Source: a virus
Virus record (IMG/VR): IMGVR_UViG_3300035204_001027
Location: 1-64,000 of that record
Direction: 5' to 3' (one strand)
Length of the DNA: 64,000 nt
Shown in pieces: positions 1,751-35,493 of this stretch. Each line of letters starts with the position of its first letter. Within the stretch, counting starts at the first letter, position 1. A program made the translations under genes and the position numbers. A model generated the notes under the pieces. It was not told where the DNA came from, searched no databases, and worked only from the letters and a program-made list of their open reading frames with translations.

Positions 1751-3238
1751 ATGCAAAAATGGTATGGACAAAATTATGTGGGTAAAAAGTTTTATGGTCC
1801 ATTTGATAAAACTTTTGAAAACATTAACCCTTCTACAGAGGAATCCTTAGGTAGCTTTCCCCTGACTTCTCCGAGCGAGGTGGGAGAAGTAATTCTTATT
1901 GCTAGAAAATCATTTAAGAAATGGAGAAAACTAAGTAGACTTGCTCGGGCAGAATATTTTTACAAAATTTCTAAAATCATAGAAGAAAGAAGAGATGAGC
2001 TCGCTAGGGTTATTTCTCTAGAGACAGGAAAAAATTTTAACGAAAGCATAGCGGAGGTTAATGAGGCTCTTCACATGGCGCAATTCGCTTTTGGTAGCGG
2101 CAGAACACCAGTAGGGGAGGCGGTTGCTTCAGAAATCGCAGACAAGGATAGCTACATGTTAAGAAAGCCGAAGGGCGTAATTGCTATTGTTTCTCCTTTC
2201 AATTTTCCAGTTGCGATTGGAGCTTTTTGGTGCGCTGCCCCAGCGTTAGTAGAGGGTAATACCGTTATTTTAAAACCTTCTGAGGATGCCCCCATGTCTA
2301 GTCAGATTTGTGCGGAGATATTTCATGAGGCTGGAATTCCCGAGGGGGTATTTAATTTAATCCATGGAGATGGAAAAACGGGAGACGCTTTGGTGCGCGG
2401 AGACGTGGACCATATTTGTTTCACTGGTAGCGCAGAAGTAGGTCAGCACATTCGTAAAGTTGCGGCAGAAAGTTGGCATAAAACGACCTCTTGCGAAATG
2501 GGGAGCAAATCTGCTGTTATAGTCTTTGATGATGCGACCATGTCCTTAGCTTTAGATTCTTGTCTTGCGAGCGCGTTTAAGCTTTCGGGTCAAAGATGCG
2601 TTTCTGCTAGCAGATTAATCATTCAAAGGGAGATCGTAGATGAATTTGCGCAGAGATTTGTAGATAAAGCGAAATGCATTAAGTCTGGGAATCCATTCCT
2701 TGACGAGAATACAATCAATGAAGATATGTATTATGGCCCTATTATCAATGAGCAAGGCTTAGAGAAGGTTGTCCAGAACAACAATGATGTTTTTAATGAT
2801 TCCGAGGCTATTCCCCTTTTGCGAGGTAAGAGGCCCGAGGGTAAGGGGTTCTTCATTTCTCCCACCGTCTACAAAACAGAATGGAGGGATGTTTCGTATT
2901 TAAAAAACGAAGTATTCGGCCCGCACGTTGCCATTATTCCTTTTGATACCTTGGAAGATGCAATACGTATATATAATGATACTGATTATGGGCTAGCGGT
3001 TGGGGTTTTGACGAATGATTTCAGAAAAGCGAGGATCATGCGAGACGAATGCGAGGCGGGAATGATCTACTGGAATGGCGGGTCTATTGCTGCTGAGTCT
3101 CATCTCGCTTTTGGCGGGGTTAAAAAATCTGGAAATGGATTTCCTAGTGCGGCTAGAACCTTCAGAGCAGTAACTCATGAAGTAAGCTGGACGGTTAATC
3201 ACGCAGACGATCTCTCCTTTCCTCAAGGCATGAAATGA
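1751..3238 (+). CDS. NAD(P)-dependent aldehyde dehydrogenase
   Basis: 495 residues, full length for the ALDH superfamily. Seen: FTGSAEVG nucleotide-binding motif (224-231), general-base Glu249 in SCEMGSK, nucleophile Cys283 in SGQRCVSASR, and a C-terminal oligomerisation strand. ALDHs oxidise an aldehyde to an acid. The arrangement is reminiscent of semialdehyde dehydrogenases. A saccharopine-dehydrogenase-like gene 1.5 kb downstream raises the possibility of an aminoadipate-semialdehyde-type substrate, which is inference only. The stop overlaps the next gene's start by 4 bp (ATGA). It appears intact, with both catalytic residues. Confidence 0.92.
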   Translation: MQKWYGQNYVGKKFYGPFDKTFENINPSTEESLGSFPLTSPSEVGEVILIARKSFKKWRKLSRLARAEYFYKISKIIEERRDELARVISLETGKNFNESIAEVNEALHMAQFAFGSGRTPVGEAVASEIADKDSYMLRKPKGVIAIVSPFNFPVAIGAFWCAAPALVEGNTVILKPSEDAPMSSQICAEIFHEAGIPEGVFNLIHGDGKTGDALVRGDVDHICFTGSAEVGQHIRKVAAESWHKTTSCEMGSKSAVIVFDDATMSLALDSCLASAFKLSGQRCVSASRLIIQREIVDEFAQRFVDKAKCIKSGNPFLDENTINEDMYYGPIINEQGLEKVVQNNNDVFNDSEAIPLLRGKRPEGKGFFISPTVYKTEWRDVSYLKNEVFGPHVAIIPFDTLEDAIRIYNDTDYGLAVGVLTNDFRKARIMRDECEAGMIYWNGGSIAAESHLAFGGVKKSGNGFPSAARTFRAVTHEVSWTVNHADDLSFPQGMK

Positions 3239-3810
3239 AGCTTAAAGATCTAGTTAGAAATGGCGATTTTTGTATCGTGGGAAATTCTCCCAAGGAACTA
3301 GGCAAAGGCTCTGGGCCCAAAATAGATTCCTACTCTTGCGTCATAAGGATAAATAATTTTGTAGTTTCCGAAGAGTACAAAGAAGATTATGGAAAAAAAA
3401 CAACTGTTTGGGCACACAGTTTTTGTTATGATATAAATCCCAAAGAAGAGATGGAAACAGTAGTTTGCCCTCTGCCATTAAATACTTGGGGAGTCATTGA
3501 TAGGTATCATTGGACAGATGTTGCGTGGATGAAAAGGGACGAATACAAAACAGAATATGCCCCCAACGACGTGTTCCACGAACTGCTTGATAGCGTTACT
3601 GAACCAAGCACAGGCCTAGCTCTTTTATATTGGATAAGTCAGTACGTGGATATCAAGGAAGATCAAGTTTTTGGTTTCGATTTCTTTGGTCGCGGAGAAA
3701 GAGGCGTAGTTACTTCTCATTACTGGGGAGAAGGGGTTAAAACCGCTCATAGCGGAGAGCAAGAGTACAACCTTTTCAAAAAAATCGTAGTAGACAAAGA
3801 TGCAGGATAG
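3235..3810 (+). CDS. GT29 (sialyltransferase-like) glycosyltransferase
   Basis: 191 residues. An L-like sialylmotif is visible (FCIVGNSPKELGKGSGPKID, then VIRINNF, residues 12-42), followed by an S-like motif (EPSTGLALLYW) and a terminal HYWGEG...H..E pattern. This is the signature layout of family GT29, which transfers CMP-activated acidic sugars. No CMP-sugar synthase was seen in the window, so the donor must come from the host or from elsewhere in the genome. It sits between the ALDH and a GT8-like gene in an overlapping operon. No membrane anchor, so cytoplasmic. Confidence 0.75.
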   Translation: MKLKDLVRNGDFCIVGNSPKELGKGSGPKIDSYSCVIRINNFVVSEEYKEDYGKKTTVWAHSFCYDINPKEEMETVVCPLPLNTWGVIDRYHWTDVAWMKRDEYKTEYAPNDVFHELLDSVTEPSTGLALLYWISQYVDIKEDQVFGFDFFGRGERGVVTSHYWGEGVKTAHSGEQEYNLFKKIVVDKDAG

Positions 3811-3811
3811 A

Positions 3812-4714
3812 ATGAAAATTTTTGTAGGAGCCCAACCTTCGCACGATATATTATTGAAGGTACTAACTCATAGTATTAAAAAGCATTGCTCAGAAAGGGT
3901 CAGCGTCAAGCCCCTTTATGGAGCCAAACGAGCAGGGCATAGAATGCCTAATGATGAGTGGAATTCTCCGGGGACTTCTTTTTCGTTTTTTAGATTTTTA
4001 ATTCCAGAAGAAACTTCTTACAGGGGTAAAGCTTTGTATCTAGATTCAGACATGATTGTTTTTTCAGATATAAAAAAATTATTTGATATCGACATGGAGA
4101 ATCACGACGTAATGGTGGCGGAGCATTTTGGTGAAACGGGTCATTCTAGCGTTATGATGATTAACTGCGCCACATGTAAGTGGGATATTGATAATATTTT
4201 GGATGACTTAGATAGTTGTAAGTATTATTATCCTCAATTAATGAGGCTTTCCCCAGTCGTGAACGATATCTCTTTCTTCTCAAAAGAATGGAATTGTTTA
4301 GATAGCTACGATGAAAATACTAATTTATTACATTATACAAAAATGCCATCGCAGCCTTGGTTAACTTGTAATAATCCCATGGGCAAGTATTGGTTTAGGG
4401 AATTTTCTGACACAATGGATTCTGGTGCTATCTCTGGGTCAGATTTGAAACACGCGGTTGAGAATAGGTATATAAGACCTTCGATAATAGACCAAATTCG
4501 CATTGGAGAAGAGGACTCTACCAAGCTTCCAGAGGGGGTTAGAAAAAAAGATACAGATTTCATGGCTTATTGTGAGCAAAATGGTTGGAATAATATGGAA
4601 GGTGCGTATCGCAATTCATATAATATAGAAGATAATGCGATAGCAGGAGAAATCGAAGCAACGAATCAGCAGTTGCATCAATTAAATGATTTTTTAAAAA
4701 ACTTGCATAAATGA
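3812..4714 (+). CDS. GT8-like glycosyltransferase
   Basis: 300 residues starting MKIFVGAQ; an ATG 12 bp upstream is possible but overlaps the previous stop. The GT-A fold metal-binding DxD is seen as LYLDSDMIVF about 75 residues in, preceded by the FRFLIPE segment typical of family 8 (LPS galactosyl/glucosyltransferases, glycogenin-like). The C-terminal 80 residues are helical and unassigned. Operon position beside the GT29-like gene suggests assembly of a glycan, perhaps on the host surface or on a phage protein. Confidence 0.75.
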   Translation: MKIFVGAQPSHDILLKVLTHSIKKHCSERVSVKPLYGAKRAGHRMPNDEWNSPGTSFSFFRFLIPEETSYRGKALYLDSDMIVFSDIKKLFDIDMENHDVMVAEHFGETGHSSVMMINCATCKWDIDNILDDLDSCKYYYPQLMRLSPVVNDISFFSKEWNCLDSYDENTNLLHYTKMPSQPWLTCNNPMGKYWFREFSDTMDSGAISGSDLKHAVENRYIRPSIIDQIRIGEEDSTKLPEGVRKKDTDFMAYCEQNGWNNMEGAYRNSYNIEDNAIAGEIEATNQQLHQLNDFLKNLHK

Positions 4715-5847
4715 GAGCTTTAGTTTTAGGTGTTGGAAGAATGGGAACCGCTATTGCGTGGGCAATGGATAAGTTCGGTTTTCACGTAACTGGTATGGAT
4801 ACTAATCCAGAAGCAGCGAACAATATACCATTTAAGGTAAATAATAATCCTGATCCAAAAAACGAATTCTTTATCGTTAAGGACGTAGAAGATATTTTCG
4901 CTGGCATTGTCGCTCAGAAAAAGCCCGATATCATCATTAGTAGCTTGCCCTATCACCAGACCGAGGAGGTAGGGACTTGGTGCGTAGATAATGGATTAAG
5001 GTATTGCGATTTAGGAGGGAGAGTAGACGTTTCTGCGGCTATAAATGAATGGGCAGAAAAATCAACCTACGCAAGAAAACCGGTGTTTACTGATCTAGGC
5101 TTGGCTCCCGGCTGGGTAAATATCCTAGCAGAAGAAGGATATAAGGCTGTTGGGTCAAAGGCTACTAAAGTGGGTATGTACGTCGGCGGATTACCCAAGT
5201 GGGTTGATATGTCGAATCCTCTCAAATATGAATCCACATGGTCTGTCGATGGGCTTATCAATGAGTATGCTGATGATTGTGAGGTTTTGGAAAATGGAGT
5301 TCTCAAAACCGTGAAGGGAATGAGTGGCTTAGAGCATCTTGAGGTTTTCGGTGCCCCATTTGAAGCTTTCTTTACCAGCGGTGGTGCGGCCCACACCATT
5401 AAATCTATGAAAGATAGGGGGGTGCTTGATTGCTATTATAAAACTTTACGGTACAAAGGGCATAGAAACGTTGTGAATTTTTTGATTAATAGATGCGGCT
5501 TAGAGAAGGAGGTTCTAGAAAAGATATTCGTGAAAGGATGCCCCCCTTCAGAGGAGGGGGATATAGTTATAATGAAGGCTAGTGTTTGGAGTGGGGAGAA
5601 CCCGTCTTTGGTTTGGACTAGACAGATACAAATAAATAGTGATGATAATTTTAGCGCAATGCAGAAGGCCACTGCTTTCTCTATCTCCAGTGTTGCTAAA
5701 ATAATGGCAGAAGGAAAAATGGAAGGAGATAAAGATCAACATAGAGATTATTGGACTCAGTATCCAATGTCGCTTTCGTATTCTGATGTACCATACGATG
5801 AGTTTGATAAAAATTTAAATCAATTAGGAGTCTACAGCGATGGATGA
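4711..5847 (+). CDS. Saccharopine-dehydrogenase-like oxidoreductase
   Basis: 378 residues. An N-terminal Rossmann motif (VLGVGRMGTAIA, GxGxxG) is followed by DIIISSLPYHQTEEV, CDLGGRVDV and GLAPGWVNILAEEG, the pattern of the saccharopine dehydrogenase family, which also includes homospermidine and carboxynorspermidine synthases. The start overlaps the GT8-like gene (ATGA) and the end overlaps the next gene by 8 bp. With the upstream aldehyde dehydrogenase it could form part of a lysine/aminoadipate-type or polyamine-type route; the exact substrate cannot be read from sequence. Confidence 0.8.
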   Translation: MRALVLGVGRMGTAIAWAMDKFGFHVTGMDTNPEAANNIPFKVNNNPDPKNEFFIVKDVEDIFAGIVAQKKPDIIISSLPYHQTEEVGTWCVDNGLRYCDLGGRVDVSAAINEWAEKSTYARKPVFTDLGLAPGWVNILAEEGYKAVGSKATKVGMYVGGLPKWVDMSNPLKYESTWSVDGLINEYADDCEVLENGVLKTVKGMSGLEHLEVFGAPFEAFFTSGGAAHTIKSMKDRGVLDCYYKTLRYKGHRNVVNFLINRCGLEKEVLEKIFVKGCPPSEEGDIVIMKASVWSGENPSLVWTRQIQINSDDNFSAMQKATAFSISSVAKIMAEGKMEGDKDQHRDYWTQYPMSLSYSDVPYDEFDKNLNQLGVYSDG

Positions 5848-10470: not shown

Positions 10471-11238
10471 ATGAAATTTTTAGCAATAGGAGATAGTTGC
10501 ACTGATGTATTTATCTATGGAAAATGCGAAAGGATTTGTCCAGAGGCTCCCGTGCCTGTTTTTAATCCCATTAAAGAGAAAACTAATGCGGGTATGGCCG
10601 CTAACGTACAGGCGAATGTGAACGCTCTTGGCGTGGAGTGCGACCTAGTCACTCAGTCGAATGAAATATTAAAAACTAGGTATGTAGATATTAAAACGAA
10701 TCAAATGTTGCTACGGGTTGACGAAAATGATGCGGCAGAAGACAAGTTCAATTATAAGGACATTTCTTGGCGTAAGTATGATGCGGTCTTAGTCTCAAAT
10801 TACGGCAAAGGCTTTCTTCGCGCGTGTGCAATTCGTGACGTATGTCAGTATCATGATAATGTTTATCTCGATAGTAATAAAGTTCATATGAATTGTGATC
10901 TGCCTCTTAATTTAAAATTTTTAAAAATAAATGAACACGAATTAGAAATAAATAAACACTGGAAAGGACACTTGCACAGGAGCCAACACGGAGACAGTTC
11001 TTACAATAGGCCAGCGCAAATAATTGTTACCTACGGACACAAGGGGTGCATGTATATGGGGAAGATGTATCCACCTCCGGAAAGGGTGGTTGCTCAGGAT
11101 TTATCTGGAGCAGGAGACACTTTCTTAGCGGCACTTGCAGTGTCTATGACTAGGGTGGGAGATGCGGAGACAGCCATAGAGTATGCAAATGAATGTGCAA
11201 GCAAAGTGGTAGCGAAAAGGGGAGTAGCCACTCCATAG
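10471..11238 (+). CDS. PfkB-family sugar kinase (HldE N-domain-like)
   Basis: 255 residues. Substrate-side motif NAGMAANVQANVNALG near residue 40 and the C-terminal PfkB signature QDLSGAGDTFLAALAV with catalytic Asp are visible, as in the heptose-7-phosphate kinase half of HldE. It is shorter than the usual ~320-residue domain, mainly in the middle. With the gene at 6412 it would reconstitute a split HldE; the intervening phosphatase step (GmhB) could be done by the host or by the HAD protein at 42134. AGGA lies just before the ATG. Confidence 0.8.
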   Translation: MKFLAIGDSCTDVFIYGKCERICPEAPVPVFNPIKEKTNAGMAANVQANVNALGVECDLVTQSNEILKTRYVDIKTNQMLLRVDENDAAEDKFNYKDISWRKYDAVLVSNYGKGFLRACAIRDVCQYHDNVYLDSNKVHMNCDLPLNLKFLKINEHELEINKHWKGHLHRSQHGDSSYNRPAQIIVTYGHKGCMYMGKMYPPPERVVAQDLSGAGDTFLAALAVSMTRVGDAETAIEYANECASKVVAKRGVATP

Positions 11239-34691: not shown

Positions 34692-34700
34692 AATTAATCC

Positions 34701-34730
34701 TTGACAAAGTGGTCAAGTTTGTGGTATTAT
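34701..34730 (+). promoter_or_regulatory. Promoter of candidate structured RNA
   Basis: TTGACA (34701-34706), 18-bp spacer, TATTAT (34725-34730). Start predicted near 34737. Unlike its neighbours it is not followed by a start codon. Confidence 0.75.
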
Positions 34731-34736
34731 TATATA

Positions 34737-35227
34737 CAGTTGAGCGAGAAATCGTTCTTTGAAAATTTAAGGGTGAAATTGGTGTTGCTGGACTGGATAA
34801 CAAGGTTCGAAGGTCAAACAAGGCGACAGCCTGACGCAGGAAAGCCCCTAGTGGAAGCGCGACGAAGCTAGACGGTGATACGATACTGGTCGGGTCAGGT
34901 TCGAATCCTGACACCCTGAACAATTTAAGCTGACGACGGTTGGCTTAAGGGAATGGCTGAATATCCCTCCAACATAAGGGGAAAGGCATGGGGCCACCTG
35001 AGAGAGTGTTATCGCATGACTCTTGTGGTTTTAGTAGACTGGTTAACTTGAACTGTATTGTGTGCTGGTCTTGATGGTAATGCAGCAATCCATCTTCCCA
35101 TTAATTTATAGGGTGAAGTAACAAACGTCCGCAAAGAGGAAACGGCCCAATAAACAAAGTGCAAGGAGTTGTGGCGTAACGGTGCATCGTGCCACGTAAA
35201 GCACTTAAAAAATTCTCCCTTTTTTTT
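34737..35227 (+). ncRNA. Candidate large structured non-coding RNA
   Basis: About 490 nt with a promoter, no sustained reading frame on the sense strand and many strong hairpins: GAGCGA-GAAA-TCGTTC (34742-34757); a tRNA-like T-arm GTCAGG-TTCGAAT-CCTGAC (34894-34912) next to CACCC, which can pair to GGGTG near 34771; a 10-bp hairpin with GACG loop (34924-34948); CCAC...GTGG with inner AGAGT/ACTCT (34994-35028); GATGG/CCATC (35073-35094); and a terminal GTGGC/GCCAC hairpin enclosed by AAGTGC/GCACTT (35157-35206), ending in eight T. Large phage RNAs of the GOLLD and ROOL classes also lie near tRNA genes, but no class match can be proven by eye. Not a tmRNA: no tag frame and a different 5' end. 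Confidence 0.7.
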
Positions 35228-35275
35228 GTCGATCATAAATACCTTTTTTTGATCGGCAATTTTTTTTGTCGATCA
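35228..35275 (+). terminator. Tandem terminator hairpins
   Basis: GTCGATC (35228-35234), GATCGGC (35251-35257) and GTCGATC (35268-35274) can pair as two alternative 7-bp stems, with T-runs of 7-8 after each. This gives back-up termination for the structured RNA. Confidence 0.75.
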
Positions 35276-35302
35276 TTCGTGAGCGGCTAATTCTTTTGCC
35301 AA

Positions 35303-35455
35303 TCAATTATGGCAATTAATGAGCGACAAAGAGGGTAATTGTTTTGCAAGATAATACTGTTTTCGTGGGATATCTCCTCCAATAATTTCGTAAATAGCAC
35401 GAATTTCACATCGGAGAAATACCCCCTTTTTACGAAACTTAAACGTGATACTCAT
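35303..35455 (-). CDS. Possible minus-strand protein, 50 aa
   Basis: MSITFKFRKKGVFLRCEIRAIYEIIGG... has protein-like composition and a GGAGGAGA-containing frame, but no promoter or ribosome-binding site was identified and it opposes all neighbours. The remaining bases 35276-35302 hold nothing recognisable. Confidence 0.3.
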   Translation of the reverse strand: MSITFKFRKKGVFLRCEIRAIYEIIGGDIPRKQYYLAKQLPSLSLINCHN

Positions 35456-35493
35456 CCGGCGGCCCGGGGCCTGAAAAAAAATGAAAAAACCGC

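Follow-up and report, generated by a model that had tools for sequence, protein, structure and literature searches.

What does a phage gain from a promoter-led stretch of 491 nt (34737-35227) that holds no gene on its sense strand? The stretch belongs to the IMG/VR virus record IMGVR_UViG_3300035204_001027 (95.5 kb), of which positions 1 to 64,000 are referred to here as the window; the record encodes T4-type terminase, PhoH, RIIA, DNA ligase, DUF932 and GP88 proteins, and metabolic genes are found in the window at 1751-5847 and 10471-11238 (aldehyde dehydrogenase, family 8 glycosyltransferase, saccharopine dehydrogenase and PfkB kinase). A sequence-only reading had proposed one novel large structured RNA next to tRNA-Cys, with a strong promoter and tandem terminators. 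The strong promoter was correctly recognised, as was the missing sense-strand gene (the longest plus-strand ORF has 56 aa and starts inside the promoter), and of the terminators one is clear. Instead of a single large RNA, however, we found the known RNA manA, a separate tRNA-like RNA, which we call TLR, and two small modules, which recur in other phages in changed order. The tRNA-Cys gene lies about 700 nt upstream behind two small promoter-led ORFs, and in sister phages the distance between tRNAs and TLR exceeds 40 kb, or the record has no tRNA at all; the tRNA neighbourhood therefore carries no weight.

The Rfam scan assigned manA (RF01745), which makes up over a third of the stretch and displays the GACG loop, CUGAAUA and CUUG..GGUA..CAG.AAUCC elements of that family, and returned no other credible family at E <= 10: neither tmRNA, group I intron and tRNA (RF00005) nor GOLLD and ROOL, which had not been matched by eye either, gave a hit in the region. 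The suspicion of a new RNA class thus applies to TLR, which lies outside Rfam, and fails for 34926-35104, which is manA. As a family TLR is new, Rfam 15 having no entry for it, and its structure is clearly supported by comparison; as a kind, it belongs among the tRNA-like noncoding RNAs. Blastn against 50,697 phages and 72,556 plasmids yielded no match at E 0.01 (the best weak match, in a Pseudomonas phage, was set aside, as it lies inside a CDS), and a pattern scan of 84,980 genomes gave 18 matches, judged by eye to be chance. A description of TLR was not found in the open-access literature, which is weak evidence, subscription journals and preprints being mostly outside this search.

Table 1. 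Positions in the window of the features of the RNA array
Feature	Position	Strand	Evidence or remark
Sigma-70-type promoter TTGACA-18-TATTAT, TG-extended, 18-nt spacer	34701..34730	+	1 change in 78 nt (34692-34769) relative to L015
5' leader hairpin GAGCGA-GAAA-UCGUUC, overlapping boxA	34742..34757	+	Folding z -2.05
boxA-like antitermination motif GTTCTTTGAAAA	34754..34765	+	Resembles Legionella Lens boxA
TLR, new tRNA-like RNA, 150 nt, acceptor to discriminator A	34770..34919	+	Comparative alignment and covariation
TLR acceptor, 5' strand AGGGTG	34770..34775	+	Pairs with 34912-34917; compensatory changes at 3 positions
TLR D-loop equivalent AAATTGGTG, GG as tRNA G18G19	34776..34784	+	No D-stem in this subtype
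TLR anticodon-arm equivalent, 5-bp stem GTTGC/GCGAC, 34-nt loop	34784..34827	+	50/50 cells pair in 10 sequences
TLR variable-arm domain, about 60 nt, conserved	34831..34893	+	8 double-change pairs over the model
TLR helix P2, closing RGGAAAGCC	34831-34835/34889-34893	+	Covariation
TLR hairpin P3	34848-34852/34867-34871	+	Covariation
TLR hairpin P4	34873-34876/34885-34888	+	Model alignment
TLR T-arm TCAGG-TTCGAAT-CCTGA	34895..34911	+	Stem covaries
TLR acceptor, 3' strand CACCCT, G, discriminator A	34912..34919	+	Direct reading; CCA not encoded
AU-rich linker ACAATTT, candidate processing site	34920..34926	+	Same or similar after TLR in most members; putative processing
manA RNA (RF01745)	34926..35104	+	Rfam 59.7 bits, gathering 55.2, E 1e-14
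Module D, small structured RNA	35105..35155	+	In 6/10 records; 3 compensatory pairs in outer stem
Module E, hairpin AAGUGC...GCACUU, inner GUGGC/GCCAC	35157..35206	+	Folding z -1.78
Intrinsic terminator, 10-bp stem, U8	35226..35272	+	Folding z -4.5

Scanning viral contigs for manA led to L015, which repeats the whole region at 95% identity, and scans with the conserved core upstream of manA to L144, L147, L148, L149, L151, L152, L153 and L154. An anchor taken from the 3' part of TLR recovers the same nine contigs, and four different sequence anchors the same TLR set, so that the search pattern does not account for the strong conservation of the core; L197 and L198, which match a pattern and lack a TLR model match, were set aside. 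The covariance model covers the 3' part of TLR, leaving the acceptor and anticodon-like stems outside, and finds exactly one strong copy per record. Applied to 47 of 75 terminase-bearing contigs, it identified two divergent members, L274 and L275 (49 and 41 bits), the other 45, mostly fragments, giving no TLR match. TLR is present in 12 phage records. Ten of them contain the terminase of the window: in nine of these, identity over its length is 68-100%, and in G004 there is only a 38-residue fragment (49% identity, at the contig end); the remaining two, L274 and L275, were reached via their terminase (identity 68-67% and 76%). With the DUF932 protein of the window occurring in nine TLR records as well, the shared genes indicate that the TLR members are one phage clade, in which L153 and L154 are identical over the compared stretch.

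In the model alignment of 11 sequences, 97.4% of the helix cells pair (33-49% in slid controls), eight pairs located in P2, P3 and the T-stem show double changes, and the covariation score reaches 0.463, as against 0.042-0.125 in slid controls and 0.233 in shuffles. Among the hand-aligned stems, 53 of 54 acceptor cells and 50 of 50 anticodon-like cells are paired, a level seen in none of 5000 shuffles; because the sequences are related, such counts are not probabilities, and the slid control and the independent stems weigh more. L274 forms the acceptor TAACGGTG/CACCGTTA and the anticodon-like stem GCTTC/GAAGC, L275 the acceptor GTCGGTG/CACCGAT and the stem CTGAC/GTCAG, and since these stems lie outside the model that found both records, they check the fold independently. 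Compensatory changes are present in the homologues and the helices covary; the noncoding structured RNA gene that had been suspected is thus confirmed by comparative evidence. The about six stable hairpins of the sequence-only reading are, in terms of folding energy, no better than chance (z -0.47 for the 491 nt, +0.16 for TLR), the structure being supported by covariation; with z near 0, folding energy was dropped as evidence, and the minimum-energy fold of the window's TLR differs from the covarying one. Conservation is also evident from the comparison with L015, in which TLR differs at 1 of 151 nt, the adjacent ORF at 15 of 252 and manA at 21 of 179. Fold and conservation of TLR are established by these alignments.

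Part by part, TLR can be compared with a tRNA. The acceptor-like pairing and the T-arm mimic with its TTCGAAT loop, both noted earlier, are real, and together with the G18G19-like D-loop they provide the acceptor, elbow and TTCRANY T-arm of a tRNA. The D-loop equivalent AAATTGGTG is unchanged in L144, L149 and L274 and reads AAGTTGGTG in L152; over the members it is AAATTGGTG or AATGGTA, with GG retained. The T-loop is TTCRANY in all members except L275 (TTCGAGC), and the anticodon-like stem is built from many pair types among 10 sequences. What TLR does not show is the tRNA-type anticodon loop of 7 nt with U33 and an unvarying anticodon. Decoding is unlikely, because nearly every phage has a loop of its own here, in sequence as in length (4, 7, 7, 11, 18 nt or more). 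In most members ACA instead of CCA is encoded 3' of the discriminator; in L274 the acceptor is followed by an encoded A-CCA, a possible trace of origin from a true tRNA.

Upstream of TLR, a boxA stands between the promoter and the first structured module, as in a boxA-led antiterminated RNA. The functional boxA of Legionella Lens, GTTCTTTAAAA (PMC7862264), is close to GTTCTTTGAAAA of the window leader, and reporter tests have demonstrated that Nus factors on boxA counter Rho on untranslated RNA (PMC4807359). The pattern RWTCTTTRANA was found in five of nine cluster leaders (the window, L144, L152, L153 and the manA leader of G003), its background being only 10 occurrences in 218,700 strand-bases, and close variants were seen by eye in the G034 and G018 leaders. 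Three of the nine (L147, L151 and L149) lack any boxA motif and that of L189 is weak only. Most wholly noncoding clusters carry the motif in their leader, and it is absent in L147 and L151, where TLR directly precedes an ORF or lies two modules ahead of one; the distribution is as expected if boxA serves untranslated transcripts, except for L149, whose leader has no boxA though its TLR does not precede an ORF. None of 69 cyanophage manA copies has a boxA upstream. A second match in the window (29161, minus strand) was set aside, as it is antisense to an ORF start. TG-extended TTGACA-17/18-TATATT promoters are found for nearly each small gene of this part of the window (34087, 34404, 34701, 35494, 35926 and 36346), many of them directly 3' of a GGCCCGGGCC-type inverted repeat.

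The order of the modules varies between phages: TLR-manA-D in the window and L015, TLR-D-manA in L153, D-TLR in L149 and L152, A-TLR-B in L144, TLR-A-B in L151, and TLR alone before an ORF in L147. Module D always remains within the same cluster, whether before TLR (L149, L152), between TLR and manA (L153) or after manA (window). In G003 and G005 manA is found elsewhere in the genome, in G003 43 kb from the lone TLR; in G034 TLR is directly followed by a sub-threshold manA (E 2e-6), and G018 has manA with boxA and no TLR. Judging from these shifts in order and content, TLR is the common member and the other modules come and go. The outer stems of module B read CCTCGCC/GGCGAGG, CCGCGCC/GGCGCGG and CCTGACC/GGTCAGG in L144, L151 and L148; some differences between the window and L015 in manA (34995/35027) and module E (35174/35192, a G-C to U-A double change) are by eye matched pairs, and an element similar to module E occurs in L152. 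Like the fold, the shuffling of modules and the motifs are shown by comparison of the sequences.

Several noncoding elements accompany these clusters. In L276 (G018), positions 830-935 hold a boxA-like motif and an unmatched module (GAGTTGGCGG...CAGCAACTC) before the sub-threshold manA without TLR, and L149 and L152 share a conserved block of about 300 nt (GAGAGAAACATACTCGTTGAAATGAAGGCG...) 3' of TLR, which matches no Rfam family. A noncoding stretch of the window (35225-35470) contains TGATCGACAAA / GATCGGCAA repeats together with a CATCGGAGAAATACCCCC-TTTTTACGAAA block that is conserved; the stretch recurs near the RNA clusters of L144, L147, L148, L152 and L153, on either side, and is possibly an origin or a regulatory region.

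We consider it probable, on this sequence evidence, that the locus is polycistronic, a boxA-led array from which separate stable RNAs arise, and that TLR is a tRNA mimic. The parts of this statement differ in strength: the anatomy of the array is very likely, the release of separate processed RNAs is rather likely, and the mimic mode of TLR is tentative; the statement as a whole stands where it does because the array anatomy is its core. The modules could instead be domains of one large RNA which folds, and perhaps self-assembles, like GOLLD or ROOL, with TLR and manA as exchangeable domains. A single promoter and a single terminator do bracket all modules, manA directly neighbours TLR in the window, L015 and G034 and lies in its vicinity in L153/L154, and GOLLD and ROOL likewise are large noncoding RNA genes of phages (PMC12286853). 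Yet order and content change freely, up to the solitary TLR of G003, covariation between modules was neither found nor needed, and the modular array differs from the one fixed fold of GOLLD and ROOL, which also have no Rfam match here at E <= 10 and no counterpart to their tRNA-island linkage; we regard a single large RNA as unlikely.

In the preferred reading, four structured modules (TLR, manA, D and E) would form a noncoding operon read from the sigma-70 promoter. The leader boxA would probably recruit host NusB/NusE and so let RNA polymerase pass through untranslated RNA, without being stopped by Rho, up to the intrinsic terminator. The precursor would then probably be cut in AU-rich linkers (ACAAUUU, UUAAUUUA) into separate stable RNAs, and TLR by host tRNA-processing enzymes, much like a phage tRNA array; the linker motif AAUUU is common in AT-rich DNA, which counts against it as a processing signal. 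Other points against the preferred reading are the leaders without boxA, the ACA that most members encode in place of CCA, and the restriction of TLR to a single clade. It is somewhat less likely still than the single large RNA that TLR is itself mainly such a signal, at whose ends host RNase P and RNase Z cut to free the neighbouring RNAs, as mascRNA does for MALAT1. The tRNA-like acceptor and T-arm and the conserved linker 3' of TLR agree with this, as does a weak, sub-threshold likeness of the L274 T-arm to mascRNA-menRNA (E 0.37, chance level), but the conserved variable-arm domain, less changed than the flanking genes, is left unexplained.

The position of manA deserves attention in its own right. 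It was described as a candidate riboswitch, a 5'-UTR element of marine sequences and cyanophages (PMC2864571), whereas in the window it lies beside TLR within a predicted noncoding transcript that ends at a terminator. A terminator intervenes and the next ORF, with its own promoter, is more than 400 nt away; manA here is not a 5' UTR element. That it would nevertheless serve the next gene as a cis-acting leader, perhaps as a riboswitch, TLR forming part of the sensor, is very improbable: Rfam classes manA as cis-regulatory, and in cyanophage contigs it often ends 20-60 nt before an ORF (see also PMC2864571), but the strong terminator and the separate promoter speak against it, and in other phages what follows manA after 10-25 nt is a tRNA gene, not an ORF. 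Apart from the window and L015, none of 98 loci has TLR beside a cyanophage manA, and module D was not found in cyanophage manA loci. In cyanophage-like contigs manA often directly follows a tRNA-like T-arm (22 contigs including L015) or precedes a tRNA gene by 10-25 nt (such settings occur in L122-L140, L099, L104, L004, L005, L053, L064 and L118), which fits poorly with a purely 5'-UTR role.

Several known systems come close to TLR. In common with tmRNA (SsrA), it has a tRNA-like domain, made up of acceptor, reduced D-arm and T-arm, into which a large insertion is set, but neither a tag ORF nor a string of pseudoknots was found between D-loop and T-arm, and TLR has a separate anticodon-like hairpin, which tmRNA lacks. 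Class II tRNAs show the same order of acceptor, D, anticodon-like arm, long variable arm and T-arm; unlike them, TLR holds a conserved domain of about 60 nt in the variable arm, has an anticodon loop of 4 to about 50 nt without conserved sequence and mostly does not encode CCA. With tRNA-Other of Bacillus cereus, a tRNA-like element in a longer noncoding transcript with a role outside translation (PMC3399842), and with mascRNA it shares this setting, and differs in its extra conserved domain and its phage context, the sequence relation having been compared via Rfam only. That TLR is a damaged or intron-bearing tRNA, or else a reduced tmRNA, can practically be dismissed, for although tRNA parts are present and tmRNA likewise has its insertion between D-loop and T-arm, every helix is kept by compensatory changes, so that TLR is not decaying, the anticodon loop is constant in neither sequence nor length, and ARAGORN at default cut-offs reports no tRNA cloverleaf, intron-bearing tRNA or tmRNA for TLR, in line with the Rfam result for these families. 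Loosened thresholds gave tRNA-with-intron and tmRNA candidates, of which the tmRNA was a permuted one only; they were rejected since they do not use the covarying helices of the TLR fold. Reading the TLR core as a tmRNA tag (AGKPLVEARRS) was likewise abandoned, as third codon positions are invariant except one and the divergent members break it. An antisense ORF of 111 aa stays open in L015 as well; its frame, however, is broken by a 2-nt insertion in the L151 T-stem; antisense ORFs are common opposite tRNA T-arms.

How might TLR act? Transcription, antitermination and processing, as well as partner and effect, are what we infer. TLR is a tRNA scaffold with acceptor stem, D-loop/T-loop elbow and T-arm, in which a conserved domain occupies the variable-arm position. 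That acceptor and elbow are retained suggests recognition as a tRNA, be it by proteins or by the ribosome, and the conservation of the variable-arm domain points to a specific partner. TLR would most likely act in trans as a tRNA mimic, elbow and acceptor docking on a tRNA-recognising host factor (the ribosome, an enzyme that processes or modifies tRNA, or a defence nuclease directed against tRNA) and the variable-arm domain doing the specific work. More speculative than the mimicry itself, and rather doubtful as a whole, is the further proposal of a natural tRNA-scaffold RNA that has lost decoding and acts through its variable-arm domain on host tRNA-handling or defence machinery, in a boxA-led array exchanged module by module, with manA as a trans-acting RNA instead of a riboswitch in this clade.

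TLR would be one of few RNAs in which the tRNA body persists and the anticodon is given up, a scaffold put to use outside translation. The shuffled boxA-led arrays suggest that a single phage operon can combine several untranslated RNAs. That manA, a candidate riboswitch, here occurs in such an array and not ahead of a gene is relevant to the question of its true nature.
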